DNA of 64,000 nt from Sweltsa coloradensis (lineage: Eukaryota; Arthropoda; Insecta; Plecoptera; Chloroperlidae). The DNA lies in assembly GCA_024449915.1 (NCBI GenBank), contig JAMZAV010000806.1, forward strand, positions 1 to 64,000. The letters are read 5' to 3'. The notes beneath the pieces were generated by a model. It worked only from the letters and a program-made list of their open reading frames with translations, had not been told where the DNA came from and made no database searches. Shown here piece after piece: positions 11,548 to 57,791 of the stretch (its first letter is position 1; each line of letters begins with the position of its first letter). The translations under genes and the position numbers were made by a program.

Positions 11548-11548
<1 letters not shown>

Positions 11549-11597
<49 letters not shown>

Positions 11598-28929: not shown

Positions 28930-29220
28930 TATTTGAAGTAGTAATTCCGCACCTTTTTAGAAAAAAAAACTTCTTACAAAAACTACTAAAATTAACTATT
29001 GGAAATAATTCACGAGTTAAAACTACTAACAATAACTACTAGCTACAACTATGGAAAATAACTAGAGGCATTAACTACGGGAAATAACTACTTACTATGG
29101 AAAAAAAATATACTTTAACTATGGACAATAACTACTAGCTATAACTACAGAACATAACTACGAGCTATAACTACGGAATATAACTCCGGCAAATAACTAT
29201 GGGTGGATACAGGACTCGTG
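28930..29220 (+). repeat. Degenerate AACTAC/AACTATGG minisatellite
   Basis: Short motifs AACTACTA, AACTATGGAAAATAACTA and TAACTACGG recur irregularly every ~20-30 bp and lead directly into the 47-bp array. Confidence 0.5.
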
Positions 29221-29551
29221 CGAATAAACTACCTTAGTATGGACACTGCTTCTGGCTCGAGCTCGTGTGAATATATTACCTAAGTGTAGAAACTGCTTCT
29301 GGCTCGTGCGAATATACTACCTTAGTATGGAAACTGCTTCTGGCTTGTGCTCGTGCGAATATACTACCTAAGTGATTAAACTGCTTCAGGCTCGGGTTCG
29401 TGTGAATATACTACCTCAGTGATAAAACTGCTTCAGGCTCGGGCTCGTACGAATATACTACCTTAGTATGGAAACTGCTTCTGGCTCGGGCTCGTACGAA
29501 TATACTACCTTAGTATGGAAACTGCTTCTGGCTCGGGCTCATGCGAATATA

Positions 29552-30294
29552 CTAGGAAAACGCTTAAGTCCCGCCGCGTTGTTGGATGAGCGTAATTGGT
29601 GTATTGAGCTGCCATGTGTTATGCGGATTTTCTGTTGTTCTGTGAAAAAATCATTACTAAGTTGAAGATTTTTTTAAAATTAAATTAAAATAACAAAAAT
29701 TAACTTTAGATTTTTTTAAAAAGGAAAAAATCGTAATATTGAAATTTTCATAAAAAATGATTATTCGATTGCAAACAAATTTTACACAAATATATTTATT
29801 CATAAAATTAAGGTTCTGTGAAAAAATCATTACAATAGGATATAGCATGTAAGTGTTATAAGTCAAAGAATTGTATTAAAAAAGAAAAAAAACGTAACAT
29901 TTCGATTTTCATGAGAAATAATTTTTCGATTGCGCTCAAATTTCAAACGAATACCTTAATTCATAAAATTAAGGTTCTGTGAAAAAATCATGAAAATCGG
30001 ATAAAGCATGTAGGTGTTACAAGCTGAAGAATTTTTTTTAAAATCGAAAAAATCGTAAAATTACGATTTTAATGATAAATAATTTTCCGATTGCGCTCAA
30101 AAACGTGGCAGTTCTAAGTTCAGAGATTTCGAAGGCCTCCAAAAAATTTCATCGTCATTGGAGTATCGGTTTAGCCGGAATCGTGTTAACAAACACACAA
30201 AAATACAAAAAGAAAAAAAGAGAAAAAAAAACATTCCGGATTTTTTTCTCCAGTGTAGTGAAATGGAATCTTCGCTTTGCTCGCTACGCTCATC
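29552..30294 (-). mobile_element. Helentron-like copy in satellite I, first of two
   Basis: CTAGGAAAACGC left end and GCTACGCTCATC right end, 743 bp. The interior has repeats built on AATTAAGGTTCTGTGAAAAAATC-like words (not the ~180-bp repeat of the copies at 1833 and 21788). The satellite unit is broken at ATACTA. Same ends with a different interior define a second subfamily. Confidence 0.65.
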
Positions 30295-30579
30295 TAACTT
30301 CCATAGTGTTGAAACTGCTTCTGGCTCGGGCTCGTGCAAATATACTACATTAGTGTTGAAACTGCTTCTGGCTCGGGATCTTGCGAATATACTACCTTAG
30401 TGTTGAAACTGCTTCTGGCTCGGGCTCGTGCAAATATACTACATTAGTGTTGAAACTGCTTCTGGCTCGGGCTCGTGGAAATGTACTACATAAGTGTTGA
30501 AACTGCTTCTGGCTCGGGCTCGTGCGAATATACTACCTTAGTGTGGAAACTGCTTCTGGCTCGGGCTCGTACGAATATA

Positions 30580-31322
30580 CTAGGAAAACGCTTAAGTCCC
30601 GCCGCGTTGTTGGATGAGCGTAATTGGTGCATTGAGCTGCCATGTGTTATGCGGATTTTCTGTTGTTCTGTGAAAAAATCATTACTAAGTTGAAGATTTT
30701 TTTGAAAATTAAATTAAAATAACAAAAATTAACTTTAGATTTTTTTTTAAAGGAAAAAATCGTGATATTAAAATTTTCATAAAAAAATTATATTCGATTG
30801 CACACAAATTTTACACAAATATATTTATTCATAAAATTAAGGTTCTGTGAAAAAATCATTACAATAGGATATAGCATGTATGTGTTATAAGTCAAAGAAT
30901 TGTAGTAAAAAAGAAAAAAAACGTAACATTTCGATTTTCATGAGAAATAATTTTTAGATTGCGCTCAAATTTCAAACGAATACCTAAATTCATACAATTA
31001 AGGTTCTGTGAAAAAATCATGAAAATCGGATAAAGCATGTAGGTGTTACAAGCTGAAGAATTTTTTTAAAAATCGAAAAAATCGTAAAATTGCGATTTTA
31101 ATGATAAATAATTTTCCGATTGCGCTCAAAAACGTGGCAGTTCTAAGTTTAGAGATTTCGAAGGCCTCTAAAAAATTTCATCGTCATTGGAGTATCGGTT
31201 TAGCCGGAATCGTGTTAACAAACACACAAAAATACAAAAAGAAAAAAAGAGAAAAAAAACATTCCGGACTTTTTTCTCCAGTGTAGTGAAATGGAATCTT
31301 CGCTTTGCTCGCTACGCTCATC
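30580..31322 (-). mobile_element. Helentron-like copy in satellite I, second of two
   Basis: Also 743 bp and almost identical to 29552-30294, in the same orientation and at the same position of the satellite unit, 1028 bp downstream. This argues for duplication of a larger satellite block instead of two insertions. Confidence 0.65.
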
Positions 31323-33460
31323 TAACTTCCATAGTGTTGAAACTGCTTCTGGCTCGGGCTCGTGCAAATATACTACATTAGTGTTGAAACTGCTTCTGGC
31401 TCGGGCTCGTGCAAATATACTACATTAGTGTTGAAACTGCTTCTGGCTCGGGATCTTGCGAATATACTACATTAGTGTTGAAACTGCTTCTGGCTCGGGC
31501 TCGTGCAAATATACTACATTAGTGTTGAAAGTGCTTCTGGCTCGGGCTCGTGCAAATATACTACCTTAGTGTTGAAACTGTTTCTGGCTCGGGCTCGTGC
31601 AAATATACTACATTAGTGTTGAAACTGCTTCTGGCTCGGGCTCGTGCAAATTACTACATTATGTTGAAACTGCTTCTCCTGTGTCATGCAAAACTCTCTT
31701 CGTGTGTGAAATTCTTAGGTTGTGCTCTGGCGGATCTGCAAATATACCTAAATAGTGTTGAACTGCTCTGGCTCGGTTGTGCAAATGTACTACATTAGTG
31801 TTGTAACTGCTTGGCTCGGGATCTGCGAATATACTAGCTTAGTAGTTGAAACTGCTTCTGGCTCGGGCTCGTACGAATATCCTACCTTAGGTTGAAACTG
31901 CTTCTGGCTCGGGATCTGCAGAATATACTACAGTGTTGAAACTGCTTCTGGCTCGGGATCTTGCAAATATACTACTTGAAGCTTCGTCTATAACTAGTGT
32001 GAATTTTGTGGTCGTGCATGACATTAATGTGTTCTGGCTTCGATTTGCGGAATATCTACGTAGTTGGAAACTGCTTCGCTCTGGTTGAAAATACTCTAGT
32101 GGTTGAAATGCATCTGACTACTAGTGTGAAACTGCTTCTGGCTCGGATCTTGCAATATACTACATAGGTGAAAACTGTTTGGAACTGCTCTGGCGAAATA
32201 CTCCTTGAGTGAAACTGCTTCTGGCTCGGGATCTTGCGAATATACTACCTTAGGGTTGAAACTGCTTCTGGCTCGGGATCTTGCAAATATACTACATAAG
32301 TGTTGAAACTGCTTTCTGGCTCGGGATTGCATGACTACATTAGATGTGAATGCTTGGAACGCTCGTGCAAATATACTACTTGTGTTGAAACTGCTTAGGC
32401 TCGGGAAACTTGCGAATACGACATTAGTGTTATAACTGCTTAGGCTTTGACTGCATATCTACGCTTCAAGGTGGACTACATGCTTTGGCTCGGGTTCTGC
32501 GGAATCTAGCATATAGTTGTGTTGAAACTGCTTCTGGCTCGGGCTGTGCAAATATACTACATTAGCGTTGAAAACTGCTTCTGGCTCGGGATCATGCAAA
32601 TTACTACATTAGTGTTAAACTGCTTCTGCTCGGGATCTGCAAATTACTACCTTAGTGTTGAAATCTTGGCTCTGCTTCTCTTGGGATCTTGCAATATACT
32701 CTAGTGGTTGAACTGCTTTGGCTCGGGTCGTGCAATAAACTGTCTTAGTGGAAACTGTTCTGCTCGGAGTCGTTGCAATATACTACATAGTGTGAAATAT
32801 TCTGGCATCGGGATCTTGCCGATATACTACCTAGTGTTGAAACTTTCTGGTCGGCTCGTGCAAATTACTACATTAGGTTGAAACTGGCTCATCTTGGCTC
32901 GGATCTTGCAATACTGCCTAGTGTTGGAACTGCTTCTTGCCGGGCTCTGCAAATATTACTGTGTTGAAACTGCTTCTGGCTCGGGATCTTGCAAATATAT
33001 ACCTTAGTGTTAAAACTGTCTGCTCGGGCTCGGCATTCTCTGCAAATGTTAAACCTTAGTGTGAACTGCATTGCTCCTTGTGTTAAATGTTTGACGGCTC
33101 TGCCGATTCTGCAAATATACTCATTGAAATCTTACTGCTTCTGACTCGGTATCTGCAATATATAAAATGTTGGCTGACTGCTTCGGCTCGATCTTGCGAA
33201 TTACAAGCTTGTGTTGCAAAAACTGACTTCTGGCTCGGGCTTGCAAATATACTACCTTAGGTTGAGTACTGCTCGGGTCTGCAAATATACTACCTTAGTG
33301 TTAAAACTGCTTCTGGCTCGGGCTCGTGCAAATATACTACCTAAGAGTGGAAACTGCTTCTGGCTCGGGATCTTGCGAATATACTACATTAGTGTTGAAA
33401 CTGCTTCTGGCTCGGGATCTTGCGAATATACTACATTAGTGTTGAAACTGCTTCTGGCTG

Positions 33461-33679: not shown

Positions 33680-33752
33680 GTCCCGGTAGCTTAATTGGTA
33701 AAGCTATGGCACGATATGCCGGAGGTTCTGGGTTCGAACCCCAGTCGGGGCA
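33680..33752 (+). tRNA. tRNA-like sequence, probably a SINE head
   Basis: A 73-nt cloverleaf can be drawn. The 7-bp acceptor (GTCCCGG with TCGGGGC) pairs fully if G-U pairs are allowed. The D stem is GCTT/AAGC, and the T arm is CTGGG-TTCGAAC-CCCAG. The anticodon stem has one mismatch and the loop is ACGATAT, so position 33 is C instead of the near-universal T; the nominal anticodon would be GAT (Ile). About 27 bp later comes a (TAA)n tract. The odd loop and the tail favour a tRNA-derived SINE over a working gene. Confidence 0.5.
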
Positions 33753-37342: not shown

Positions 37343-37361
37343 TTCTCCCCCCCTTTTTCTT
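37343..37361 (-). other. Polypurine tract
   Basis: On the minus strand GAAGAAAAAGGGGGGAGAA directly precedes the 3' LTR start TGTTAGG. This is the plus-strand DNA primer site of the element. Confidence 0.85.
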
Positions 37362-40200
37362 CAGACCACACGATGACGAAGATTGTAAGGATGGTCAGCT
37401 TTAGGTGGTGGGGGCGCAGGCCGGACCACTGGTGCTGGAGGAAAGTCAGTTATCGGGGCCCAGTCAGGTGGATCCATATTGTGCAGCAGTTGGTCAATGT
37501 TTGCATGACCAGCAGATTTACCCGTTCGCTGGTCTACAAGGTCATACACGTTATTGCCAATCTTTTGCACAAGCATGTATGGTCCATCTCGTTTTGGAGC
37601 TAGGCTTGCCGAAATCCCCTTACTTGCATCACTGAGAGTGTGTTGGTCTCGCCACACCAAGTCACCTACACGAAACTCAACATCTTTGCGTCCGGAGTCG
37701 TATCTTGTCTTTTGACTATCATGCAGTTTTCCGGACCTATCAGCTGCAAAATCCCGAGCATCAGTCAGACGGTTTAACAGGTCTGCTGCAAAATGTTGTG
37801 TTTCCGCTGGCAAATTGATATTGTCTTCTATTCCGTCTTCTGTATCTTGTGGGGACCATGGAGCTCGAAGTTCTCTTCCGTAGACTAAAAAAGCCGGAGA
37901 GTACCCAGTAACTGAGCTAACTGAAGTACGAAGAGCAAAGAGTATTTCAGGCAAACAAGAGTCCCAATCCCGATGTGTGTCACAGTATGCCTTGAGAGTT
38001 TCCTTGAGAGTCGCATTGTACCGTTCTACCATTTGTCCCGCCGGACGGTAGGGGACTGTGTGCCTCTCAATGATTCCCATATGAGACAGTACACCCTTCC
38101 ACAGTGCACTGACAAATGGCTTTCCATTGTCACTTGAAATGCTCTTGGGGAACCCATGCCTTGTAAATACTTCCACCATACATCGGACTATAGATGAGGT
38201 ATTAGGGTTTTTAATAGGAAATACCTCCAAGTACTTGGTGAATTTGTCCACAATTACCAATAAATGGTTGAAATGGCGTGGAGATGTCGGAAGTGGTCCC
38301 ACAAGGTCAACGCTGAGTTCATCCATGGGGCCACTAGGAAGTCTGCTGTCCATTTTGCCTGTTGGTTTCTGACGAATAGGCTTCAAAGTTTGGCAAGATT
38401 TGCAAGAGCGAACAAATTTAGCAATATCGGGACGCATCCCCATCCAAACAAAAGAGCGTTGTACCCTTTTTAAAGTTCTGAAGAACCCGCCATGCCCACT
38501 TAATGGGTGGTTGTGTTCAGCTGACAACACCAAGGACCGAAGAACTTTAGGAAGCCAGGTTTTGCTGTAAGTTCCCTCTTCGGTTCCTGGGAGTCCAGCA
38601 ATGCGCCTCACTAAAACGCCCTCCTCATCCAATGCACTTTCTTTAGCCATTGTCTGCACCCAAGCTGCAAGCCGCACATTTGTAGGTAACTCACCTGTGA
38701 GCATAAAGTGTGCTAAAGGTCGAAGGTCCTCATCCTTTTTCTGAAGTCCAATGAGCATAGGTTTGTCCTTCAGAACAGTTATGTCTAGATCATTCACTGA
38801 AAATACTGCTTTTGCACATGGGACAGCTTCGAAAGTCACATTTTGAAGATGGTCAGACATAGAAATAGGAAACAGTGCTTCAGGCAATGAGGGAACATGA
38901 TCCTGTTGCACTACTGCACAAGGAGCTCTGCTTAGTGCATCAGCTGGTATGTTGTCACGGCCCATACGAAACCGTATAGTGCAATCGAAACCTTGCAACC
39001 GTAAAACCCAGCGTTTCACCCGGCTAGAAGTAAGTTCTGTTTTGAACATCCACGTAAGAGAGGCATGATCACAAAAGACGTCAAAGTGTGAAAACTCCAG
39101 ATAGGGTCGAAACTTATCAACAGCCCAAACAACCGCCAGGCATTCCAGCTCCTGCACAGTGTAGTGTTCTTCATGCTTTGTTAACTGCCGGCTTATGAAT
39201 TCTACGGGGCGGAATACGTTATTGAATTCTTGCAAAAGTACAGCTGCAATACCAACACCACTGGCATCTGTTTCCACTCTGAATGGTTTGTTAAGATCGG
39301 GAAGTGCTAGTGCTGTGGCATCAATGAGGCCATCCATGAGAGCCCGAAAAGCGGCTGCCTCTCTCTGTTCCCAACGCCATTGCGTGTTCTTGCGCAACAG
39401 GTGTGTGAGTGGCAAGGACACTTGGGAAAAATTTGGAAGAAAAGACCGGTAGTACCCAACAAAACCAAGGAAACGCTGTAGCTCCTTAACCGTGGTTGGT
39501 GATGGGTAGTTCTTTAATGTAGCCAATTTCTCCGGGTCAGGAGCACATTCTCCGGGACGAATAAGGTGGCCAAGAAAACCCAGTTGCTGCTGAAACAGCT
39601 GAACTTTTCGTGGGTTTATAGTTAAATTTGCAGCTTCAATGCGTGACAGTACTGCATCCACGTCACGGACATGCTGTTCTGCTGTCTCAGAAAAAACCAC
39701 AAAATCATCCAAAAAAGCCATGACACATTTGTACTTGAGGTCGTGTAGTACATTATCCATGAGCTCCTGGAACCGAGCAGGACTGCTGGCGAGGCCAAAC
39801 GGCATACGAAGGTATTCGAAGACTCCACGATGGCATATGAAAGCCGTTTTATGTCGATCTGCAGGAGAAACGGATATCTGATGAAAACCTTGAGACAAGT
39901 CTAGGGTTGAAAACCACTTAGCTCGTCCCAATTGTGCAAACACCCATTCTGTATTCGGCATAGGATATAGTGGCACAGTAGTGCGCTTATTGACCTGTCT
40001 GTAGTCCACAGCCAGTCTGTGGCCTCCCGATTTTTTTGGAACTATAACTGGAGCAGAGGTCCAACTACTGCTGGATGATTGTATGATACCCTGCTCCAAT
40101 AGGTCGTCCACGAGCCCATCGAGAATCACCCTTTTGCTGTTGTTGACCGGGCGCAACTTGCATCTGGATGGTCTGTTATTACCTGTATCAATTGTATGTT
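37361..40200 (-). CDS. pol: Gypsy Pol: reverse transcriptase, RNase H, integrase
   Basis: A 931-codon open frame from about 40156 (open to ~40200, no natural start, as expected inside a polyprotein) to the stop at 37361. Residues ~30-215 are reverse transcriptase with L-D-L-S-Q-G-F-H-Q, M-P-F-G-L and catalytic F-L-D-D at 148-151 (F-L-D-D instead of the usual Y-x-D-D). Residues ~290-412 are RNase H (D297, E336, D363). The integrase has an H-H-C-C finger at ~548-589 and catalytic D617, D676 and E711. A GPY/F module (G-P-Y-M-L-V) lies near residue 870. No chromodomain is visible. A proline-rich tail ends the protein. Integrase and polymerase look intact; expression depends on the frame breaks upstream. 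Confidence 0.95.
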
Positions 40201-41333
40201 CAATTCTTGTAGTTAACCCTGAACCCTGAAGATATGGGCATATCTTTCAAGGACTTTAGCCAGGGAAACTGCACTTCCGGAGGACCATGTTGAACAGCAC
40301 CCTCTATTGTCGCAAACACTAACTGCGTCTCAGTGGACAAGTTTTGCTGCAATTCAGGTTGTTCCTGTAGCGATGTACGAGTGAATCCTGGTAGCATAGG
40401 AGCTACTATACGCAACGCTGCTACAACGTCATCAAGCTGTTTCTGCCGCCCTGGACCTGAAGCCACAGGCAATGGTGCACCGGAAGATAGAGGAGATAAA
40501 CGAACAGGAGAGCCAGTAGTCGGGATAACTGTATCCTCAGTTATCATCATCAGTGTATCATCATGTTGAACAGCAACTTGTATTGGCGCAAGCACTAACT
40601 GCCCCTCAGTGGACAAGTTTTGCTGCAAATCAGGGTGTTGCTGTAGAGATGTACGAGTGAATCCTGGTAACATAGGAGCTACTATACGCCAAGCTGCTAC
40701 AACGTCATCAACCTGTTTCTGCCGACGTGGACCTGAAGTCACAGGCAATGGCGCGTGTGAAGTAAGAGGAGATAAACGAACAGGAGATACAGTAGTCTGG
40801 ATAACTGTATCCTCAGCTGTTGTCAGGGAAAACAACTGTTGCAATCCAATTGAGTCTATGACAGTGTCAATATCCCTTGATACTCCCATATTATTAACAC
40901 TCTGGTTTGCAAAAGGAATCAGCCTCTGTATGGACGTACCAACTGTCCAGCCTCCTTCCACTATGTGCAGTGAAATGCCTGTTGCTTGGAGAAAGTCTCG
41001 TCCCAGGATAATGGTGGCTGCAAGGTCAGGCAAGAATAAGAATTTTTGCCGACGCGTACCTCCGGACCATCGGATGTGTACTCGAAGCTGTGCTGTAGCT
41101 GCTGCAGTCCCTGATGCTAAACACAATGAACGCGAAACATTGCATGCTTTAGCACCTGCTGCTACTGCTGCCTGTAGACCCACCTCCCCTAGTAAACTGA
41201 CACACGATCCCGTGTCCATCAGTGCGGGGAGAGAAGCATCTCCTATATTTACATCTAAAATGGGAGTTCCACATTTGACGTGGCTTACCTGCATTACTGA
41301 TTCCATGCAAGACCTCGCAGGTAAAGGTCTCAC
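40201..41333 (-). CDS. Gypsy aspartic protease plus duplicated linker
   Basis: A 377-codon open frame. The protease shows A-L-M-D-T-G-S (catalytic DTG, residues ~36-42) and a flap/ILG block (I-I-L-G-R-D-F-L-Q). It is followed by two tandem ~100-residue repeats (starting E-D-T-V-I-Q-T-T and E-D-T-V-I-P-T-T) sharing P-V-R-L-S-P-L and R-I-V-A-P-M-L-P-G-F-T-R-T-S-L-Q. The DNA copies lie at about 40270-40560 and 40560-40830. The frame ends about 40 bp before the polymerase frame opens; similarity to other gypsy elements continues in the two other frames, so at least two small indels separate protease and polymerase. The linker function is unknown. Confidence 0.85.
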
Positions 41334-42519
41334 ATCTGGTAGTTTCCCTGGTTGTTAGTTGTAGGTATAGTGCCTAGATCTGAGCGGGGTGTGGGGCATT
41401 GCTTAGCCCAGTGTCCTCTACCTCCACACCGGTTGCAGGATTCGTTTGACCGAGCTCGAGGGAGTGTAAGCGCCTTACGTTTGGACAACGCATCTGAAGT
41501 TGTTTGCTTGGTGGGGTAGAAAGCGAGGTCTCGTTCAAGGAAGGTATCAGGCAAAGGAGGAGGGCGGTAACACGAATTACGCCAAACCAAATCCTGAATC
41601 TCTGGACCTACATCCTCTAAGTCTCTTAGTGATGTGAAGTTCCTTCCTAGCAATGCATGTCGAGTAAATGGAGTAACTTGGGCCAAGACTCTGTTCACTA
41701 GCTCCTCTTCAGACTCTGTGGATCCTAAACGCTCGCTGTAAGCTCTGATGACCCGCACAAAGGAGCCAAGGTCTTCATCAGGGTGCTGTGTCCGAGTTTC
41801 CAGTTCCATGCGCAGACGTCGTAGGCGATCCGGTTCTCCAAAGGTCCTGAGGAAATCCTGCTGAAAACCATCCCAAATGGTGTATCCCCCACGTGACTTC
41901 CACCAGCGTTGCGCATCACCCACTAGCGCTACAGGAAGAATCTCCTGCAACAGCCAATGCCGATCGCGATGCACTGCAGTAGCGTACCGAGAGAGTTGCT
42001 GAAGAAATTCAGCCGGTGAATTTGCATCCAAACGCCTTCAAATATTGGTATGTCAATTTTGAGGGCACGAACCGTGGTATCCCCTATATGTTCTCGAGGA
42101 ACAATGTCACAAACCCTTGGCGACGTCGCGAGCACGGGATGCGTGAGCAACCCTGTACTATCTGCAACGGGCGACGGTGAAGCAAACTCTGGTTGCGATA
42201 TCAAATAGGCGTTGATCTGCGTTGGAGACGCAAGCTCGGGTCGCACGGACGACCTTGCACCGGCAGCCTCAGACGGCAAGGTTGGTGACACAGTGGAACG
42301 CAACCGTGGCGGAACGGGAGGCGCGCCAACAGTGGTGCATTCACTCATCGTAGCCTGCACTGGTGAAGTTTCCGCCTCACATACCATTCGCAATGCACGT
42401 ACAAATCCGTCAGAATTATTTACCTGAAACCTTCCCATGGCTTGTATTAGGTCCAAAGGTACAGCGTCCTCGTCAAACCGCGGCGACACGAAAGGGTTTG
42501 ATTCCATATCGACACACAA
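41330..42519 (-). pseudogene. gag: Gypsy Gag in two frames
   Basis: The first frame (42519-~42035) is a Pro/Ser/Ala-rich N-terminal region ending in an I-P-I-F-E-G block. The next frame (42031-41330) continues with A-E-F-L-Q-Q-L, a capsid-like region (L-P-V-A-L-V-G-D-A-Q-R-W-W, D-E-D-L-G-S-F-V) and a CCHC knuckle (C-N-R-C...H...C) before the end. The break near 42035 is a single-base frame difference without a convincing slippery heptamer, so mutation or base-calling error is more likely than programmed frameshifting. The gag end overlaps the protease start by 4 bp. Confidence 0.85.
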
Positions 42520-44124: not shown

Positions 44125-47100
44125 TTAAAACAGTCAAGCCACGCTCTTGTTAACATACGTGTGGTAAGCTTTGCCACAGTCACCGCCTTTTTAAATAGTG
44201 TGGTAAGCTTTGCACACAGTCGAGCCGCGCTCTTGTTACTACGGTGGGAAGCTTTTTCACACAGTCGAGCCGCGCTCTTGTTAACAATACGTGTGGTAAA
44301 ATTTCACACAGTCGGCCACGCTCTGTTTAACAAAGTGTGGTAACTTTGCACACAGTCGAGCCACGCTCTTGTTAAAAATACTGTGGTAAACATTTGCACA
44401 CAGTCGAGCCAAGCTCTTGTTTACTTTCGGGGGTAAGCTTACACCAGTCGAGCCCCGCTCTTGTTAAAAACGGTGATAAGCTTGGCAACAGCGAGCCACG
44501 CTCTTGTTAACTACGTGTGGTAAGCTTTGCCACAGTCGAGCCAAGCTCTTTTTAAATTCGTGTTGTAACTTGCACAAAAGTCGGCCCGTCTTGTTTAAAA
44601 TACGTGTGGGGGAACTTTGCACACAGTCGAGCCCGCTCTTATTAAAAACGGGTGGTAAGCTTTTCACACGCGAAAAACGCTCTTGTTAACATCGTGGGTA
44701 AAACTTTGACAAGTCGGCCCGTCTTTTTTCATACGTGTGGTAAGCTTTCACACGTCGAGCAGCTCTTGTTTAAAATACGTGTGGAAGCTTTTTCACCAGT
44801 CAAGCCCCGTCTTGTTAACATACGGGAAACTTTTTTTCACAAGTCGAGCCACGCTTTGTTTAACATACGTGGGTAACTTTTCACAAGCAAACCACCCCTC
44901 TTTAAAATACTGTTAAGCTTTGCACAAAAACAGCCCGTCTTTTTAAAATACGTGTGGGAAGCTTTGCACACAGTCGACCCGCCTTGTTACATACGGTGGT
45001 AAGCTTTGCACACAGTCGACCCGGGTCTTGTTTAAAAAACGTGTGGTAAGATTTGCACACAGTCGAGCCACGCTCTTGAACTACGTGTGGGAAGCTTTGC
45101 CAAAGCCACCCCCCCCCCTCTTGTAACGCGTGTGGGAAGCTTTAAAAACAGTCGGGCCCGTCTTGTTACATACTGTGGGAAGCTTTGCACACAGTCGAGC
45201 CCGCTCTTGTTAACATCGTGGTGCTTTGCACACATCGAGCCCCGCTCTTGTTAAAAAACGTGGGTAAGCTTTGCCACAGTCGACCGCGCTCGTTAACATC
45301 GTGTGGTAGCTTTGCACCAGTCGAGCCCGCCCGTTTAAAATAGTGTGGGGAAGCTTTGCACACAGCGAGCCACGCTCTTGTTACCCTCGTGTGGTAACTT
45401 TGCACACAGTCGAGCCACGCTCTTTTTAACTCTGTGGTAGCTTTGCACAAGTCGAGCCAGCTTTGTTAAAATACCCCTTGTTTTTGGGGGGGTTTTAAAC
45501 TTTTCCACAGTCGAGCCGTCTGTTACATACTGTGGTAAGCTTTGCAAAACCGTCGAAACCCTCTTGTTAACATACGTGTGGTAAGCTTTGCACACGTCGA
45601 GCCCGTCTTGTTTTTATAGTGTGGAAGCTTTCACACAGTCGAGCCCGCTCGGTTTTTCATACGTGTGGGAAGCTTTTCCACAGTTAGCCCCGCTCTTTTT
45701 TAACATACTGTGGTAACTTTAAAAACAGTCGAGCCCGCTCTTGTTAAAAATACGTGGGTAAGCTTTGCAACAGCAAACCCGCTTTGTTAACATAGTTGTA
45801 AGCTTTGCACACGTCGAGCCCGCTTTTGTTAACTCGTGTGGTAAACTTTCCCCCACATCAAGCACGCTCTTGTTAACATACGTGTGTAAGCTTTTGCACA
45901 AAGTCGAGCCCAAATCTTGTTTAACAACGTGTGGTAAGCTTTCCCCAGTCAGCCACGCTCTTTTTTACATACGTGGTAAGCTTTGCACACGCGAGCCCGC
46001 TCTTTTTAAAATACGTTGTTTTCTTTCACACAGTCGAGCCAGCCCCTTTTTTTTACATACGGGGGTAAGCTTTGGGACACAGTCGAGCCCCCCTCTTGTT
46101 CTACGTGGGTAAGCTTTGCACAGTCGAGCCCGCTCTGTTAAAAACGTGTGGTAAGCTTTGCACAAGTCGAGCCACGTTTGTTAACATTCTGTGGTAAGCT
46201 TTTTCCACAGTCGAGCCGCTCTTGTTAAAAATACGTGTGGTAAACTTTGCCCCAGGGCGAGCCGCTCTTTTAACATACGTTGGAAGCTTTGCACCAAAAA
46301 AAAACCCGCTCTTGTTTACATACGGTGGTAAGCTTGCAACAGTCGACCCGCTTTTTAACTACGTTGGTAAAACTTTGCACCAGTCAGCCCGCTCTTGTTT
46401 AAAAACGTGTGGAACTTTTCACACAGTCAGCCACTCTTGTTTTAAAATACGGTGGTAACTTTGCACAAGTCGAGCACGCTCTTGTTAACATACTTGGTAA
46501 GCTTTACACGTGAGCCCCCCTCTTTTTACATACGTTGGAACTTTGCAACGCGAACACGCTCTTTTTTAACTACGTTTGGTTTAAACTTTGCACAAGTCGA
46601 GCCCGTTTGTTCTCGTGTGGTAAGCTTTTCCACCCGTCGAGCCACGCTCTTGTTAACTACTGGGGTAGCTTTGCACACAGTGGCCGCTCTTGTTAACATA
46701 CGTGTGGTAAACTTTCCACAGTCGAGCCAGGGTCTTGGTAACATGTGGTAAACTTTCACACAGTCAGCACGCTTTTTGTTAAAACGTGTGGGAAATTTTC
46801 ACAAGTCGGCCAAGCTTTGTTAACATACGTTGGTAAAATTTGCACAAATCAGCCACGCTCTTGTTAACATACGTTTGGGAAGCTTTGCACAAGTCAGCCG
46901 CTCTTTTACATAGTGGTAAACTTTGCACACAGTCGAGCCGCTCTTGTACAACGTGTGGTAAGCTTTGCCACGTCGACCGCGCTCTTGTTAAATACGGTGG
47001 TTAAAATTTCACACAGTGGCCACGTCTTGTTAACATACGTGTGGAAGCTTTTGCACAAAGTCAGCCCCGCTCTTGTACCTCGTGTGGGAAACTTTAACAC

Positions 47101-48305
47101 AGTCGAGCCAGTCTTTTTCATACTGTGGTAAGCTTTCCACAGTCCCAGCCACCTCTTGTTAACATAGTGTTAACTTTGCACACAGTCGGCCACCTCTTGT
47201 TTTCATACGGTGGTAAGTTTCACCAGTCGGCCCGCTCTTTTTTCATACGTGGGTAAGCTTTCACACGTCGGGCCCGCTCTTTTTAACTACGTGTGGTAAG
47301 CTTTGCACACAGTCGAGCCGCGCTCTTTTTAAAACTTTTGGTAAGCTTGCACACGCGAGCCACGCTCTTGTAAAATACGTTGGTAACTTTCACCAGTCGG
47401 CCCGTCTTGTTAACTACGTTGGTAACTTTGCACAAGTCAGCCCGCTCTGTTAAAATACGTGTGTTTAAAACTTTACAACGCGGCCAAAAGCTTTGTTAAA
47501 ATAAAGTGTGGGAAACTTTCACAATCAGCCAAGTCTTTTTAATAGTGGTAAAGCTTTCACACAGTCGAAAACCACGCTCTTGTTAACATACGTGTGGTAA
47601 ACTTTACACACAGTCGAGCCACGCTCTTGTTAACATACGTGTGGTAAGCTTTGCACACAGTCGAGCCACGCTCTTGTTAACATACGTGTGGTAAGCTTTG
47701 CACACAGTCGAGCCGCGCCTCTCTTGTTAACTACGTGTGTTAACTTTGCACACAGTCGGAGCCACCGCTCTTGTAACATGAACGTGTGGTAGCTTTGCAC
47801 ACAGTCGAGCCCACTCGTGGTGGTAACATACGTGTGGTATGCTTTTGCACACAGGTCCGTAGCACATCGCTCGGGTTGTATATCATACCGTGTGTTAAGC
47901 TTTACACACAGTCGGCCACCTCTTGTTAACAAGACGTGTGGTAAGCATTGCACACAGTTGAGCCACGGCTCTGGAAAAGAGGAGGGTAACATACTGTGGT
48001 AAGCTTTGGCACACAGTCGAGCCACGCTCTTGTTGAACATACGTGTGGTAAGCTTTGCAAACAGGCGAGCCGCGCTCTGGTTAACATACGGTGTGGTAAG
48101 CTTTGCACACAGATCGAGACACGCTCTTGTTAACATAACGTGTGTTAAGCTTTGCACCAGTCGAGCCAAGCTCTTGTCAACATGCGTGTGTAAGGGCTTT
48201 TGCACCAATCGGCATGCTCCTGGTTAACATACCGTATGGTCTCTTGCACCAGTCCCGAGCCGCGGTCTTGTTAACAGACGTGTGGTAAGCTTTGCACACA
48301 GTGGA
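44125..48305 (+). repeat. 47-bp satellite array II
   Basis: The unit is GTCGAGCCACGCTCTTGTTA followed by ACATACGTGTGGTAAGCTTT and GCACACA. Units are clean at 44140-44300 and 47580-48300. Those in between have frequent one- to three-base gaps and homopolymer stretches. The nominal copy number is about 90, but the noisy centre makes it unreliable. All apparent open frames in it are by-products of the repeat. Confidence 0.9.
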
Positions 48306-49905: not shown

Positions 49906-50617
49906 GTGTGCTATGTGCGTGTGCATTATACGTAGCATAAATACCTACACCACAGTGACCAGCATAGACCCAGCCTTCTCGAGAGAGCATTCGCAACTAA
50001 CCAAATAAAGGTAACGCCGTAAAGGACAAGTGATTCAACATTTTCAAATTCAAACTGAACGCTACCCCCACCCTCTTTCTGCCCTAACGGCTTAACAGTT
50101 GTTTGTCAAGACGAGTCGGGCTGGCCGTGTGTGGAAATGACATGGCGAGCATCCGTCGTGCCACATACAGCTGAAATAAGTTAAGACGCATCTGGGCCAC
50201 GTATGGCTAGCCAGATGTTTGCCAAGTCATGGCTAGCCGCGCACAGCAAGGATCTGGCTGGTATCCGGCGTCCAAGCAGTTTAAAATGTATGGCTAGCCT
50301 GGTATGGGCCAGACGATGCCCAGACGTGCTTTCCCGTACGTCAGGCAGCCAGATGAGGGCCATACGTGGCCCAAACGATCCCGAAAATCCTGTGCTACTA
50401 GGGTGTGGCACAAGACCGAATATTTTCGACAGAGGTATCCACAGCACACAATAGGGAACTAGCCTTCATTCCAGAAATCGAATATGTTCAAGACAACATT
50501 AAAAAAAAATATCATAAAAGTTTTTTTTTGTCTAAGGTTAATACTTTTCTCAATATTTAACGTTGAAATTTGATTCTGGCTTCCCGCCAAAAGACAACAC
50601 GAAAAGTAGTTTGACGT

Positions 50618-51400
50618 CAGACTGCTGAGCGCAGCCAGAGTAGATAAAGAAGTTTTCCCTTTGGGGAGGTCCTCCAACTCCCTATACCGCCCTGGGTTAA
50701 ATAAAAAGTCGGTTTTTGGCGTTTGGAATCTAACGTTCCGCGCGACTCTGTGTGACGATTGATGGAACTACTTCAATAAAACTACGTCACTTTTCTACTA
50801 GTTGTTAACAGTCGATTACGACAAATGGCGGAAACGTCAAAATATTAAATACGATCGAATGTTGGCGAATGTTTTGGAGTAAAGTAAACTCTCTTTATTG
50901 ATGAGGATATTTCTGATGGAGTAGACCTAAGCTTAGGACCTAGGCCGACAATATGTATTGTTCAAGATTTCGATTTGAATGCCAAGGGCGTACTTACGTC
51001 TGAAAACTGTATTGTGGCCTTGGGCCTAGGCTACACTTACGTCCGTTAGGCTAAAACAAGACATATCTCAAATTATTTCGCACGAAAATGTCAGTGACGC
51101 CTGCGCAACACTTTATAGTACAATAATAAATCAAAAGTAAATCGTTTTAAAAGACTAGGGCCCAGGGCTAATATGATTGAAATAAAATTGAAGTTTGATA
51201 TTTCGTCTGTTGTTTGTTGATTTCAGCGTCACTGCACATCGATAATCTACTGACCGTATTTAGCGTGCAGTGCTTTTATTAGTTTCACATTGGAGCCGCT
51301 CTCAGCGCGCAGGACGTTAGATTCCGTTTTGACTTGGGAGTAAGGGGACCTCCCCAAAGGGGAAACTTCTTTATCGACTCTGCCGCAGCCTAACGCAGAC
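50618..51400. repeat. Inverted repeat, ~100-128-bp arms, 560-bp spacer
   Basis: Arms 50618-50745 and 51304-51400 share GGACGTTAGATTCC, GACCTCCCCAAAGG, AAACTTCTTTAT and GACTCTG-type words in mirrored order. The spacer is AT-rich and non-coding. Could be a non-autonomous DNA element; no target duplication recognised. Confidence 0.6.
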
Positions 51401-51586
51401 CCAAAGGCGCACCGCTATCTAGATATAAATGGTAGATATTCTACCATCCAGTCGGCGGTGGGTCAAACACATCCTAGCAGACAGTTGCCGTCACTGCGCC
51501 CGCTGTCATTCCTGCTATCGTTTCTCAACGACACTTTTGATTGAATTTAAAAGAAATGACGCTTTATAAAAGGTGTAAGGTACCAA

Positions 51587-51751
51587 TAGGTTTGTTCGTT
51601 CGTACACACTTTTGTGAAAAGAGCCATTTTGGTCCGTTCGTTCGCTTCAGTGTTAAAACTGGCACTCATAACACTAGCCTAGAAGCCAGTGTAAAGTGTA
51701 GACACTGACTTTTTTTAGTGTTAACACTAGGTCCGCGAACGAACAAACCTA
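51587..51751. mobile_element. MITE-like 165-bp inverted repeat element
   Basis: TAGGTTTGTTCGTTCG at the left is matched by CGAACGAACAAACCTA at the right. Further inside, AGTGTTAAAACTGG and inverted AGTGTTAACACT words allow near full-length pairing. Possible TA target. Confidence 0.6.
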
Positions 51752-51892
51752 ATGTGTTTAAACACCACTCTAGTTTTTTACCGGAGAAAGTATTTATATA
51801 TGTTCCAAAAAGAACTAAACAGGTGAAAAAAATGGTTAAACACAACAAGACGAGAATATGTCAAGAAGTTGTAGGGCCTCTAGCCTACCGCT

Positions 51893-52310
51893 GCAAATTC
51901 ACTTTACCGTTGTGAATACCACTTTCTCCTTTCATGTAAGTAAATGATATTAATTGGTCTACCTACTACTTTTTGTTTCACAGGTTAGTTTCCTATGAGC
52001 TTCTAATTTACCTCGGGATTATTATAAGCCTAGGACCTATACGTAACTCATTTTCTCGCGGGGAATTATTCAAAATATGTAGTTAAAAATTTTGAATTTG
52101 TGACATTCTCCCATGCGAGAAAACGCCTCTTACGTTTAGGCCCTAGACTTATAATCCCAAGGTAAATTTTGCTGCGAGAATATTTGGCCGGAGCCTAACA
52201 GAAGCTTATAGGAAATTCAATTGTGAATTAAAAAGCTAGTAGACCAATTAATAATATTTACTTGCATCAAAGTGGTCTTCACAACAGTAGAGTGAATTTG
52301 TAGAGGGGGC
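51893..52310. repeat. Fold-back: ~170-200-bp inverted arms with a ~45-bp loop
   Basis: Arms 51893-52063 and 52110-52310 mirror each other through GCAAATTCAC, TTGTGAA, AATTGGTCTAC, TTCCTAT(G/A)AGCTTCT, ACCT(C/T)GGGATTAT and TTTTCTCGC words. The two arms differ by small indels, so the hairpin is not recent. No coding content. Confidence 0.7.
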
Positions 52311-52439
52311 GTCCTCCTCAAAACATTCTCGTGCTGCAGCTTTGAACAATTCTTTTTGCCTTGTTTGTCGTTTGGTTCTTTTGGCACGTGTAAAATGATC
52401 TTCTCCGGTGTTTCTACAGTGGTAGCCTTTGCCATCTTG

Positions 52440-52740
52440 GTAGACCTAGGCCCTTAGGACCTAGGGCCGAGGTAGGCCTATCACTACGCCCAGGTCTAGG
52501 CGCATATTTAAATATAAAACCTAAAGCCCTACCAAACATCAATGATATAAATCATATCATCATCATCAACCTAAAAAAAACTAGGCTAAGGATACAGGAA
52601 ATGCCTCGGCCTAGCCCTACCTAGGCTAGGCTATGTCTAGGGCATCCAAATGGACATTTTATAGAATTGATTTACCTAACCTAGGGCAAAGACACAGCCT
52701 AGGGCGTAGGGCCTAGCCTAGCGCAGCCTTGAATGACTGT
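52440..52740. repeat. CCTAGG/AGGCCT-rich stretch
   Basis: Words such as CCTAGGCC, TAGGCCT and CTAGGGCC recur at high density. Similar words are at 61190-61300 and 61995-62020. Composition of this kind is seen in some deuterostome genomes; here it only serves as a clue to the organism. Confidence 0.45.
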
Positions 52741-53264
52741 ACGACTACGCCAGACCATAAACCTACAAATTCTTTCCCATAGAGAAATAACCGGGGCTCT
52801 TTCCCACCAATGAGAAATAAATCGCTTTCTAGTCAAGGTCGGGTAGACGCACTGTCAAAATCGGTCAAAATCACGGGGTTCTTAAGTCATGGTCGTCATC
52901 TTTGTCATCGTTCGTGTTGTTGTCAAAATAGTCCGATTATTGATGAGCACGGTCCACTGGATTACCTCTAGGCTTCGCTGCCGCGCACGGCCGCTCGTCG
53001 AGCTTTTGTTGTTGTTGTTGTAGTATTTATTTCTTGATAAATACAAACTACAACGATGAGCATGCTGCAAGCTACGTAACGCAGTTGAACCAACAACGAG
53101 CGTTTGCGCGGGGGTTCAAAACCCTATAACTTTGTACCCCCGTAGTTACCACGGATGATTTAAAAAAAAAAAATCTTTCAATTGTGAAGTTTATTTAACT
53201 GTGTTCTATAAATAATAAAAAATGAAAAACGTGAATTTGAGACCAAGGCTAGTTCCCTATTGCC
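52741..53264. other. No gene recognised
   Basis: Unassigned sequence. A GTTGTTGTTGTTG stretch lies at 53006 and an A run at 53160. No coding or repeat family recognised. Confidence 0.3.
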
Positions 53265-53594
53265 ACAAGACCGAAAAATTCGGTGTTGTGGCACATACTG
53301 GATGGGTCGTAAGACCGAATGATTCGGTGTTGTGGCACATACTGGATAGGTCGTAAGACCGAATGTTTCGGTGTTGTGGCCGACTGACAGCATCGAATAT
53401 ACAGTGCACACAATAGCCACAACACCGAAAAAATGACTACCCCACAAGACCGAATATTTTCGACACAGGTATCCACAGCACACAATTGCCACAAGACCGA
53501 AGAATTCGGTGTTGTGGCCCTAGCAGGACGGGTCGTTCTTCACAACTTACTTTAGATTTTACCGATTTTCGGTCTTGTGGCGACTGTGTGGCGA
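53265..53594. repeat. Palindromic ~44-bp repeat array
   Basis: Units contain GCCACAAGACCGAA followed within 3-4 bases by TTCGGTGTTGTGGC, a near-perfect inverted repeat, joined by CATACTGGATGGGTCGTAA-type linkers. Palindromes centre near 53279, 53322, 53366 and 53507, with half units at 53415, 53449 and 53570. Each could form a 13-14-bp hairpin. The array abuts the left end of the Penelope-like copy. Confidence 0.75.
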
Positions 53595-53763
53595 TTGTGA
53601 ATATATCGTCAATATATCTTAGCCAAACAATTGGCTTCAATGGAGCATTCTCAAGAGCTTTAGTTTCCAAAAAATCCATGAATATGTTTGCAATAACTGG
53701 AGAAAGAGGTGATCCCATCGGCGCTCCCTTGACTTGTTTATACATATTACCTTCATACCGAAA
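53593..53763 (-). pseudogene. Penelope-like reverse transcriptase, palm part (inverted segment)
   Basis: Minus-strand codons encode G-S-P-L-S-P-V-I-A-N-I-F-M, then W-L-R-Y-I-D-D-I-F with the catalytic D-D (~53612), followed by a few residues before the palindromic array begins. G-S-P-L-S-P and R-Y-x-D-D-I-F are characteristic of Penelope-like enzymes. Continues at its 5' side beyond the hAT-like insert (57792-57922). Confidence 0.8.
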
Positions 53764-54363
53764 CATGGGCGCCGGCAGGAATTTTAGCAGGGGGGGCAAC
53801 AACCACAATTTGTAGTTTCGTTGGGCAAGCACGGGGGGTTTGGGGGACAGAGCCCCCCAACAATAGCGCCGCAGGCGAAATTTTTGAAAATCAGGTTTTT
53901 TGAATGCATTTGGTGGGTTTTAGAAAAAAGTAGTGGGCTGAATACGATACCGAAATTATGTAATTTTTGTGCAGTAGATACTAGAAAGTAAACAAAAAAA
54001 CATTGTGTCTCAACTTTTATACGGTTATTAAAATAAGTTAAGAGTTGAAAATGAAACACACGTTTTAAAAATAAAGGCTATATTTTATTTTGCATAAAAT
54101 TATAATGAATGTGACTGTTTTGATCATATTTTCTTTTTTACATAAACTGCAACTTGTAAGTTCTCTCCAGTTGCAATGCAATGTGGAATAAAAATATAAA
54201 ACATAAACACGTTCTTAGAGGTCTACATCGACTAATAATATGAGATTGGAGAAGGGTTGACAGGTTGGGAAAGCAAAGAGAACATAAATCCCAGCCTGAA
54301 GGGCTGGGGGCGACAAAACTTTTCACCTGCTGATGACAACTGCAGCTAATTTAAAGTTGTTAC

Positions 54364-54415
54364 CTTAATCCACGACGCGTTTCGTCCTTCTGGGACTCAT
54401 CAGGCAGATGGTGGC
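54364..54415 (-). ncRNA. Type I hammerhead ribozyme, copy 1
   Basis: Core CTGATGA, stem II GUCC/GGAC with a 5-nt loop, GAAA, then ACGCGT and the cleavage triplet GTC. Stem I pairs six bases next to the core, then after a 3x3 internal loop three more (CCA with TGG-type pairing). Stem III is only the palindrome ACGCGT with no loop, so two copies probably have to pair as a dimer. Such minimal stem III hammerheads are known from Penelope-like elements. Confidence 0.85.
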
Positions 54416-54622
54416 CACTAAAAATCAGCTAACTACATGCAAACAAAACTCACAACACATAACCAAACCTGTGGTAGGGCCACGCAAGAAGCAAATTCTG
54501 CATGCATGTTGTCATCATCAGCAAGGTTACTTCAAACACCATTCATACTGAGCCACACCGTCAGCACAACCAGTAAGGGGGCTTCCCTCCCAACTCTAGT
54601 GCTCGGGAGACAAAACATCCAT

Positions 54623-54700
54623 GACTCACCCTGGATTCGAACCAGGACCCTTGGCAACAAGAGAAAAGCTGCCCCTTCTGTTGCTTGGCCAGGGTGCCTC
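54623..54700 (-). repeat. tRNA-like module 1, copy 1
   Basis: On the minus strand TGGCCAAGCAACAG (A-box-like) and GGTTCGAATCC (perfect B-box consensus) are spaced about 40 bp apart. The T arm CCTGG-TTCGAAT-CCAGG pairs fully. Confidence 0.7.
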
Positions 54701-54864
54701 TTCATTCATACTTTAAAAAAAAATATATATATAAAAATATAAAAAAAATATATAAAATAAAGAAAAAAGGGGTCAGAGATAGGAAAGGTGGAAAGTCACA
54801 CAACAGCACAACCAGTGAGGGGGCTTCCCTCCTAGACTCTGGTGCTTGGGCGACAAAACAACCA

Positions 54865-54937
54865 TGTCTTAACCTGGATTTGAACCAAGACCCGTGGCAA
54901 CGAGAGAGGCTGCCCTACTAATTGTGACTGGGATCAG
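54865..54937 (-). repeat. tRNA-like module 2, copy 1
   Basis: The minus strand carries GGTTCAAATCC (B box) and a GGGCAGCCTCTCTCGTTGCC segment matching module 1 (GGGCAGCTTTTCTCTTGTTGCC, split here by two changes). Modules 1 and 2 are diverged duplicates of one tRNA-like sequence. Confidence 0.65.
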
Positions 54938-55365
54938 AAAACGAAAGGAAAAGACACTACAAGTTGCAAGCTCTTGGCTATAGCACAGGTACACGTGCTA
55001 TAATAGCTCTTGGCTGCAGGTGAAGAGGTTGAAGGAAAAGAAGAGAAGGGTCTAACAGGTTCATCACCTGCTAGGCCCCCCCAGCAGGACAAGGAGTCAC
55101 ACTTGTAATGAACAAGGAAACACGGACCCACCAGAGGGTGTAGTAGGCTCGCCCATCTCAACCCCAAAGGTGAAGACAGAAAAAGAAAGTGATAGGGTGT
55201 CAATCGACTGATTGGTTCTAGTGTGAAAAATGCCTATCGGCTACTTAGATTGGAGAAGGGTTGACAGGTTGGGAAAGCAAAGAGAACATAAATCCCAGCC
55301 TGAAGGGCTGGGGCGACAAAACTTTTCACCTGCTGATGACAACTGCAGCTAATTTAAAGTTGTTA

Positions 55366-55418
55366 CCTTAATCCACGACGCGTTTCGTCCTTCTGGGACT
55401 CATCAGGCAGATGGTGGC
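55366..55418 (-). ncRNA. Type I hammerhead ribozyme, copy 2
   Basis: Identical in the core, stem II, stem III and stem I to the copy at 54364, one unit (~1.0 kb) away in the same orientation, as required for excising a unit-length RNA from a tandem transcript. Confidence 0.85.
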
Positions 55419-55625
55419 CACTAAAAATCAGCTAACTACATGCAAACAAAACTCACAACACATAACCAAACCTGTGGTAGGGCCACGCAAGAAGCAAATT
55501 CTGCATGCATGTTGTCATCATCAGCAAGGTTACTTCAAACACCATTCATACTGAGCCACACCGTCAGCACAACCAGTAAGGGGGCTTCCCTCCCAACTCT
55601 AGTGCTCGGGAGACAAAACATCCAT

Positions 55626-55702
55626 GACTCACCCTGGATTCGAACCAGGACCCTTGGCAACAAGAGAAAAGCTGCCCCTTCTGTTGCTTGGCCAGGGTGC
55701 CT
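55626..55702 (-). repeat. tRNA-like module 1, copy 2
   Basis: Same as 54623-54700, with intact A-box-like and B-box sequences. Confidence 0.7.
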
Positions 55703-56006
55703 CTTCATTCATACTTTTAAAAAAAATATATATATAAAAAAAAAAAAAAAAAAAAAAAATAAAAAAAAGAAAAAAGGGGGGGGGTCAGAGATAGGAAAGG
55801 TGGAACGTCACACAACAGCACAACCAGTGAGGGGGCTTCCCTCCTAGACTCTGGTGCCTGGGCGAAAAAAAAAAAAAAAAATGGTGTTTGAAGTAACCTT
55901 GCTGATGATGACAACATGCATGCAGAATTTGCTTCTTGCGTGGCCCTACCACAGGTTTGGTTATGTGTTGTGAGTTTTGTTTGCATGTAGTTAGCTGATT
56001 TTTAGT

Positions 56007-56060
56007 GGCCACCATCTGCCTGATGAGTCCCAGAAGGACGAAACGCGTCGTGGATTAAGG
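56007..56060 (+). ncRNA. Type I hammerhead ribozyme, copy 3
   Basis: Plus-strand copy identical to the minus-strand ones. A CCAGCC/GGCTGG hairpin lies about 55 bp downstream (56117-56134) and recurs after every hammerhead in the element. Confidence 0.85.
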
Positions 56061-56489
56061 TAACAACTTTAAATTAGCTGCAGTTGTCATCAGCAGGTGA
56101 AAAGTTTTGTCGCCCCCAGCCCTTCAGGCTGGGATTTATGTTCTCTTTGCTTTCCCAACCTGTCAACCCTTCTCCAATCTAAGTAGCCGATAGGCATTTT
56201 TCACACTAGAACCAATCAGTCGATTGACACCCTATCACTTTCTTTTTCTGTCTTCACCTTTGGGGTTGAGATGGGCGAGCCTACTACACCCTCTGGTGGG
56301 TCCGTGTTTCCTTGTTCATTACAAGTGTGACTCCTTGTCCTGCTGGGGGGGCCTAGCAGGTGATGAACCTGTTAGACCCTTCTCTTCTTTTCCTTCAACC
56401 TCTTCACCTGCAGCCAAGAGCTATTATAGCACGTGTACCTGTGCTATAGCCAAGAGCTTGCAACTTGTAGTGTCTTTCCTTTCGTTTTC

Positions 56490-56565
56490 AGATCCCAGTC
56501 ACAATTAGTAGGGCAGCCTCTCTCGTTGCCACGGGTCTTGGGTTCAAATCCAAGTTAAGACATGG
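56490..56565 (+). repeat. tRNA-like module 2, copy 2
   Basis: Contains GGTTCAAATCC and the GGGCAGCCTCTCTCG block. Lies between hammerhead copies 3 and 4, in the same orientation. Confidence 0.65.
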
Positions 56566-56725
56566 TTGTTTTGTCGCCCAAGCACCAGAGTCTAGGAGGG
56601 AAGCCCCCTCACTGGTTGTGCTGTTGGGTGACTTTCCACCTTTCCTATCTCTGACCCCTTTTTTCTTTATTTATTTATTTTTATATATATATTTTTTTTT
56701 TGTTTTTTTAAAGTATGAATGAAGA

Positions 56726-56801
56726 GGCACCCTGGCCAAGCAACAGAAGGGGCAGCTTTTCTCTTGTTGCCAAGGGTCCTGGTTCGAATCCAGGGTGAGT
56801 C
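56726..56801 (+). repeat. tRNA-like module 1, copy 3
   Basis: Contains TGGCCAAGCAACAG and GGTTCGAATCC in the usual spacing. Preceded by a T/A-rich spacer of variable length, the most variable part between units. Confidence 0.7.
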
Positions 56802-57008
56802 ATGGATGTTTTGTCTCCCGAGCACTAGAGTTGGGAGGGAAGCCCCCTTACTGGTTGTGCTGACGGTGTGGCTCAGTATGAATGGTGTTTGAAGTAACCT
56901 TGCTGATGATGACAACATGCATGCAGAATTTGCTTCTTGCGTGGCCCTACCACAGGTTTGGTTATGTGTTGTGAGTTTTGTTTGCATGTAGTTAGCTGAT
57001 TTTTAGTG

Positions 57009-57061
57009 GCCACCATCTGCCTGATGAGTCCCAGAAGGACGAAACGCGTCGTGGATTAAGG
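57009..57061 (+). ncRNA. Type I hammerhead ribozyme, copy 4
   Basis: Second plus-strand copy, about 1.0 kb from copy 3, again identical through the catalytic core. Ends 150 bp before the right edge of the element. Confidence 0.85.
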
Positions 57062-57791
57062 TAACAACTTTAAATTAGCTGCAGTTGTCATCAGCAGGTG
57101 AAAAGTTTTGTCGCCCCCAGCCCTTCAGGCTGGGATTTATGTTCTCTTTGCTTTCCCAACCTGTCAACCCTTCTCCAATCTAAGTAGCCGATAGGCATTT
57201 TTCACACTAGAATCGACTAATAATATACTAGCCTACAAATCATAGAAACGATATCATGTTACATTATTATTATTTATTTCAATAAATCATACAAATAATA
57301 TCACATAACATAAAATAAATGGAAAACGGGCGTGATTGACTACACCCAAAATGGAAAAGCAGAAATTTCAATGCATTACTAAGAATTGCCTACAAACATA
57401 ATCACAAATTTATTTTTAAATAAAGAATAAATTATTGTAGGCCTACCGTGTTCTGGGGGTCTATTTACTAAACTCTAAACGACATGCTAAGTTTCATCTA
57501 ATTATCACTTGTGCCGCTAGTACCAACTTAAAATACCGCCAAATTCAAAGGCAGCACCGGCACCGCTAACTTTGATGAAATAGCAAAAAAACAAACAAAC
57601 TAGCAACACTCCGCTCCCGATCAGATCATTAAATATATAAATATTATTAATATTAATTTTCAATTGAATTTCGGTTTCACGAATACATTAATGTATATGT
57701 AATAAACGCATATCGCCAGTTAAAATTTATTTTTCCTGAAATCCAGGGGGGGGCAAGCGCCCCCCCTTGCCCCCCCCCTCCCGGCGCGATG

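Follow-up and report, generated by a model that had tools for sequence, protein, structure and literature searches.

What kind of element placed four identical hammerhead ribozymes, two on each strand, in a single locus of the plecopteran Sweltsa coloradensis? The locus is found on contig JAMZAV010000806.1 (assembly GCA_024449915.1), of which positions 1 to 64,000 of the forward strand were analysed (hereafter the window), and is comprised of an insertion at 54242-57212 having the 14-bp target-site duplication (TSD) TCGACTAATAATAT on both sides. We interpret it, with a probability of about 0.72, as a single insertion of a non-autonomous Penelope-like element (PLE). It is most likely a derivative flanked by pseudo-long terminal repeats (pLTRs) and devoid of an open reading frame (ORF), which would have been moved in trans by a PLE of the GIY-YIG type.

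The covariance model RF00163 (Hammerhead_1) of Rfam gave four matches in the 64-kb window, each with 39.4 bits (E 1.8e-6) and thus above the gathering score of 34, as the preliminary description of this DNA, made from the letters alone, had proposed; that description gave the four sites with the right strands, its start positions being off by 4 to 7 nt. No fifth hammerhead was found in the whole window with a permissive Rfam scan (E up to 1). The 30-nt hammerhead core has four exact matches in the window and occurs nowhere else in it with up to three mismatches, none of 100 dinucleotide shuffles contained any match, and a chance origin of the four hammerheads is excluded. Also in line with the earlier proposal, stem III (ACGCGT) is self-reverse-complementary and loopless, as reported for the minimal type I hammerheads of PLEs, and the copies on the same strand are spaced by about 1.0 kb (1003 nt on the minus strand and 1001 nt on the plus strand), giving a tandem dimer per strand. 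Stem I (AUCUGC/GUGGAU) has 6 bp including two G-U pairs, stem II (GUCC/GGAC) carries a loop of 5 nt, and the cleavage sites are located after 56049 and 57050 on the plus strand, and at 55377 and 54374 on the minus strand. For a monomer, the minimum free energy (MFE) structure has -7.8 kcal/mol and differs from the hammerhead fold, part of the core being base-paired in it. When one core is closed in a dimer via the ACGCGU stem, the energy is -19.9 kcal/mol, versus -15.6 kcal/mol for two monomers at their MFE and -13.2 kcal/mol if the two monomers form just stems I and II. The energy model allows, and does not prove, a dimer hammerhead. The ribozyme probably works in dimeric form on tandem transcripts.

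The insertion is built from a non-coding repeat unit of 1001-1003 bp (GC content 0.46), which is arranged in two arms placed head to head (period 1003 on the left and 1001 on the right; Table 1). The left arm extends approximately 320 nt deeper into the unit than the right arm. Both arms terminate outward in the same 299-bp hammerhead block, beyond which the right arm is 31 nt longer; the 31 nt of this tail are also present inside the unit (56181-56211 on the plus strand and 55216-55246 on the minus strand). Each arm is unbroken through two hammerhead cleavage sites, and neither has its 5' (inner) end at one. The hammerheads, unit, arms, tail and duplication are seen directly in the sequence, as is the absence of a helper ORF.

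The insertion shares with PLEs a minimal type I hammerhead in each of its four pLTR-like blocks, with the loopless stem III; direct pLTRs together with an inverted pLTR, positioned head to head; a tail of the 30-40 bp class at one end only, here 31 nt at the right end; and a short TSD (14 bp, 11 of them A or T) in an AT-rich target. The one-end tail, the inverted arrangement and the target duplication were not part of the preliminary description, and represent stronger evidence for a PLE than what it contained. In Penelope elements that contain an endonuclease (EN), an ORF is located between two direct pLTRs with an adjacent inverted pLTR and a 9-bp TSD, a 31-bp tail is optional on one inverted pLTR, and head to head is the commonest orientation observed for bdelloid Penelopes; a host gene can also be present as cargo between pLTRs, sharing no internal sequence with Penelope (PMC3846280).

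The four hammerhead blocks display no substitutions and one 1-base indel, so that the "four unchanged copies" claimed earlier are exact for the 30-nt core and not for the whole 299-bp block. Selection or very recent amplification, put forward to account for them, is unnecessary: the four copies were apparently laid down in one insertion, and selection as the cause of their identity was rejected on this ground. When the T tract is excluded, the alignment of the two full units covers 950 nt and contains 3 substitutions and 3 single-base indels. Over 257 shared nt, the partial inner copy of the left arm differs by 2 substitutions from the left full copy and by 3 from the right full copy, and the full copies of both arms show 1 difference; the T tracts of all three copies differ.

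Table 1. Features of the PLE-type insertion and its borders (positions in the window).
Feature	Position	Strand	Remarks
Left TSD TCGACTAATAATAT	54228-54241		exact 14-nt match; window holds only this copy and 57213-57226
Right TSD TCGACTAATAATAT	57213-57226		last A of the element could lengthen the duplication to 15
Left arm, 1622 nt, more than one unit	54243-55864	sense on -	outer end ...CCAATCT, no tail; one unmatched base at 54242
Right arm, 1331 nt, more than one unit	55882-57212	sense on +	outer end with 31-nt tail
Head-to-head junction, run of 17 A	55865-55881		by eye, missing from that place in the unit
Tail, 31 nt, AAGTAGCCGATAGGCATTTTTCACACTAGAA	57182-57212	+	right end only; left end without tail
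pLTR-like hammerhead block, left outer	54243-54541	-	299 nt, identical to 55882-56180
pLTR-like hammerhead block, left inner	55247-55544	-	298 nt, one indel in a C run relative to the others
pLTR-like hammerhead block, right inner	55882-56180	+	299 nt, identical to 54243-54541
pLTR-like hammerhead block, right outer	56883-57181	+	from sequence comparison
Hammerhead type I, left arm outer copy	54368-54409	-	RF00163, 39.4 bits
Hammerhead type I, left arm inner copy	55371-55412	-	RF00163, 39.4 bits
Hammerhead type I, right arm inner copy	56014-56055	+	RF00163, 39.4 bits
Hammerhead type I, right arm outer copy	57015-57056	+	RF00163, 39.4 bits
tRNA-SINE-like module A	56511-56623	+	B-box-like GGTTCAAATCC at 56541-56551, 10/11
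tRNA-SINE-like module B	56722-56874	+	B box GGTTCGAATCC at 56781-56791, 11/11

Between successive hammerhead blocks the unit has about 700 bp without recognisable coding sequence, and we read it as a PLE whose coding part was replaced by non-coding DNA with two modules that resemble tRNA-derived short interspersed nuclear elements (SINEs). Modules A and B are 83-85% identical over approximately 113 nt. Module B likely represents a SINE insertion because it is bounded on both sides by a AGTATGAATG repeat (56712-56721 and 56875-56884), and on this evidence it probably entered an older unit. Scored against the 11-position B-box consensus, the rest of the window (122058 bases, both strands) has six places with at least 10 of 11 matches, and the A-box-like matches in the modules are unspecific. 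Two results speak against the SINE assignment: no Rfam tRNA match was obtained in 56470-56890 (E up to 10), and no tRNA was found in the insertion by ARAGORN. Transcription by RNA polymerase III from the modules was rejected as the main driver for now, based on the T runs (4 T after the B box inside module B, and runs of 4 T and 5 T before the hammerhead) and on the lack of a tRNA model match.

How could such a structure be formed in one event? A staggered double cut at the AT-rich site would leave 14-nt 3' overhangs, each of which would serve as a primer for reverse transcribing RNA of the 1-kb unit, starting at the inner site (...CCAAUCU) in one case and 31 nt further (...CUAGAA) in the other. 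The cDNAs would run for 1.6 and 1.3 units, through the hammerhead sites, their free ends would be joined head to head via the A/T run, and fill-in would create the target duplication and the mirror-image structure. The PLE enzyme, the order of these steps, the priming from both ends and the joining of the ends are what we infer from the anatomy of the insertion. A break with 14-nt 3' overhangs that serve as primers fits with a 14-nt duplication and with both ends being attached via the 3' side of the RNA; the reported properties of PLEs would lead one to expect the orientation of the two arms, a tail on just one of them and the geometry of the 3' overhangs. For the PLE of the anole, both target strands were cut and extended in vitro, reverse transcription started at two internal sites that are the two boundaries of the tail, and AT-rich targets were preferred (PMC11167929). 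Since each cDNA crosses two hammerhead sites, the template would have been uncleaved or re-ligated RNA, not cut linear monomers; the cutting of a transcript into unit-length RNA, suggested previously, is possible in principle, but it does not agree with arms that each cross two cleavage sites and have their 5' ends at none. Nothing in the sequence indicates that hammerhead activity was required for insertion. The anole hammerhead cleaved only when PLE protein was added, its mutants still inserted in vitro, and unprocessed RNA was suggested as the main substrate (PMC11167929). We therefore propose tentatively, at slightly below even odds, that the insertion is the footprint of both-end priming, in which the overhangs of one cut start at different tail-bounded sites, with unprocessed multimeric RNAs as templates, and the products are joined head to head.

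Several points weigh against the PLE reading or against the proposed course of events. No ORF encoding a reverse transcriptase (RT) or GIY-YIG endonuclease is present in 54242-57212, where the longest open frame has 140 codons, and the 135-aa ORF, the only listed one of at least 130 aa in the insertion, matches no Pfam family. The insertion is therefore not an autonomous PLE, and the earlier claim of one non-autonomous insertion is supported. A PLE coding remnant in the unit was considered and rejected: the frame from the hammerhead ATG stops after 11 codons, with more stops beyond (this covers the Pfam search with the 135-aa ORF and the hammerhead-ATG frame, other short frames not having been searched). 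The target duplication alone is not decisive, because 40 out of 20000 random 2971-bp intervals in the repeat-rich window were also flanked by an exact repeat of at least 14 nt; these chance intervals presumably stem from the tandem arrays of the window. One insertion cannot separate simultaneous priming from both ends from a fold-back or a later rearrangement, and the start sites of the anole PLE are alike on top and bottom strand, one site per end not being predicted (PMC11167929). The A17 junction is unexplained, and the centre of a palindrome is the least safe place for an assembly. The MFE structure of the hammerhead dimer (-22.3 kcal/mol) is a different fold. Finally, no autonomous PLE with the same block was found; the hammerhead pattern had no match in genome_contigs, and a 22-nt pLTR word had none in viral_contigs, but both collections consist of viruses and prokaryotes and not of animal genomes, and absence from them says little. 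A degenerate hammerhead pattern matched one stretch of viral_contigs (an IMG/VR contig, L001, at about 11500-11580 on the minus strand), which was rejected as a relative: visual inspection shows a long stem III of its own and nothing alike outside the core, and it scores below the Rfam gathering score.

The explanation that survives best next to both-end priming retains a PLE-type element, and is in this respect not exclusive of our interpretation: the inverted arms would result from self-priming on an antisense template or from a single cDNA folding back, an origin that has been proposed for bdelloid Penelopes. Self-priming is favoured for head-to-head copies by the authors of PMC3846280, whose argument rests on palindromes at the junctions, whereas the junction of the present insertion is an A17 run. 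The near identity of the arms outside the T tract, given above, would agree with fold-back, but the deeper extension of the left arm into the unit does not, and fold-back of one molecule does not predict a tail on one arm only. We regard this origin as unlikely.

Less probable again is a metazoan non-LTR retrozyme, in which a host ligase would close the hammerhead-cut transcripts into circles and copying around a circle would give tandem cDNA. These elements are likewise non-autonomous, with non-coding tandem units, type I hammerheads, a TSD of more than 4 bp and a GC content below 50% according to the text of PMC7229834 (below 45% in the legend of its Figure 1), and a circle would account for arms that exceed one unit and whose 5' ends do not coincide with a cleavage site. 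PLEs have been named as possible movers of animal retrozymes (PMC7761336 and PMC11722881). However, the retrozyme repeats measure 150-450 bp, and the reported circular and linear RNAs approximately 170-400 nt, versus the 1001 and 1003 bp of our unit, and the tail and the inverted block are characteristic of PLEs, neither a tail nor an inverted terminal block being seen in the available part of PMC7229834. The copies also count against a circle, because one circle copied twice should yield the same sequence, whereas the left-arm copies differ by 2 substitutions in 257 nt and in the T tract, more than the 1 difference between the full copies of the two arms. The copy differences thus do not support a single circular RNA from which both were made, although the numbers are small and the centre of the palindrome may be misassembled. 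Lastly, an ordinary satellite or a segmental inverted duplication that contains a hammerhead by chance, without retrotransposition, is highly improbable, since recombination can produce tandem and inverted repeats but the insertion is flanked on its two outer sides by an exact 14-nt duplication, its ends are 31 nt apart as in PLE tails, and the rest of the window contains no further match to the unit (E up to 1).

Several other mobile elements and repeats were found in the window. An RT fragment (53437-53832 on the minus strand; Pfam RVT_1, E 1.3e-8) ends approximately 400 bp from the insertion and has four database relatives that are 50-53% identical over 44-56% of the fragment; its motifs are presumably Penelope-like. 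Beside it are 44-bp repeats with an inner inverted word CCGAA..TTCGG (53267-53380 and 53485-53536), preceded by a probable DNA transposon (50453-53258) with inverted ends AGGGAACTAGCCTT.../...AAGGCTAGTTCCCT, which by eye is located inside a repeat that resumes on its other side. A retrotransposon with RT, RNase H, integrase and gag domains (37361-42031 on the minus strand) is taken to be of the Gypsy type, and two pieces, at 17319-18224 on the plus strand (RVT_2) and 2449-3060 on the minus strand (gag_pre-integrs), are assumed to be of the Copia type. Long tandem arrays occupy 29215-33459 and 44187-48302, with units of 47 bp and about 44 bp, and a tRNA gene (33680-33752 on the plus strand) has the anticodon GAT (Ile) according to ARAGORN and scores 48.5 bits in Rfam.

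The insertion belongs to an already known kind of element, the PLEs, and it is its footprint that bears on their integration, a process that is only partly known and in which the role of the hammerhead is open. It keeps both ends, the tail, the duplication and the join, and it constrains the mechanism: the copies ran through hammerhead sites, the ends are 31 nt apart in the unit, and no protein of the element is encoded. If both-end priming were general, one step would explain the inversion of PLEs, the tail at one end and the foreign cargo between pLTRs, which in the present insertion would be a SINE-bearing non-coding RNA. From the insertion one would expect a tailed and an untailed end to be combined in other inverted PLE copies as well, and any genome rich in copies would allow such pairs to be counted. 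Both-end priming as the cause of inversion is not spelled out in the available part of PMC11167929; the literature search on this mechanism, which mostly did not cover subscription papers, yielded only that paper and, for the years from 2021 on, also a review, and no priority is claimed.

When comparing the insertion with known systems, SMalpha of Schistosoma is similar in being a SINE-like element with a type I hammerhead, likened here by description only, and the SMalpha-similar copy measures 335 bp (PMC8490949); short non-autonomous Penelope elements are mentioned for butterflies (PMC6685494). The Poseidon PLE of Anolis carolinensis (PAc) shares the hammerhead in the pLTR region, the two internal RT start sites that bound the tail, the cutting and extension of both strands and the AT-rich target; in contrast to the insertion, where the frame from the hammerhead ATG is soon closed, the RT-EN ORF of PAc begins within the hammerhead (PMC11167929). 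The Penelopes of Adineta vaga differ in having a TSD of 8-10 bp instead of 14 bp and a single pLTR as the inverted part instead of more than one whole unit (PMC3846280), while the insertion carries a non-coding cargo that includes two SINE-like modules; the whole text of PMC3846280 does not contain the word "hammerhead". The organization of the insertion is nevertheless like that of Pen2a_Av and of the pLTR-flanked copy of a non-ribosomal peptide synthetase (NRPS) gene of Pen3a, which combine direct and inverted pLTRs head to head with an optional 31-bp tail on one pLTR and a short TSD, and the NRPS copy likewise represents a cargo without internal Penelope sequence (PMC3846280).

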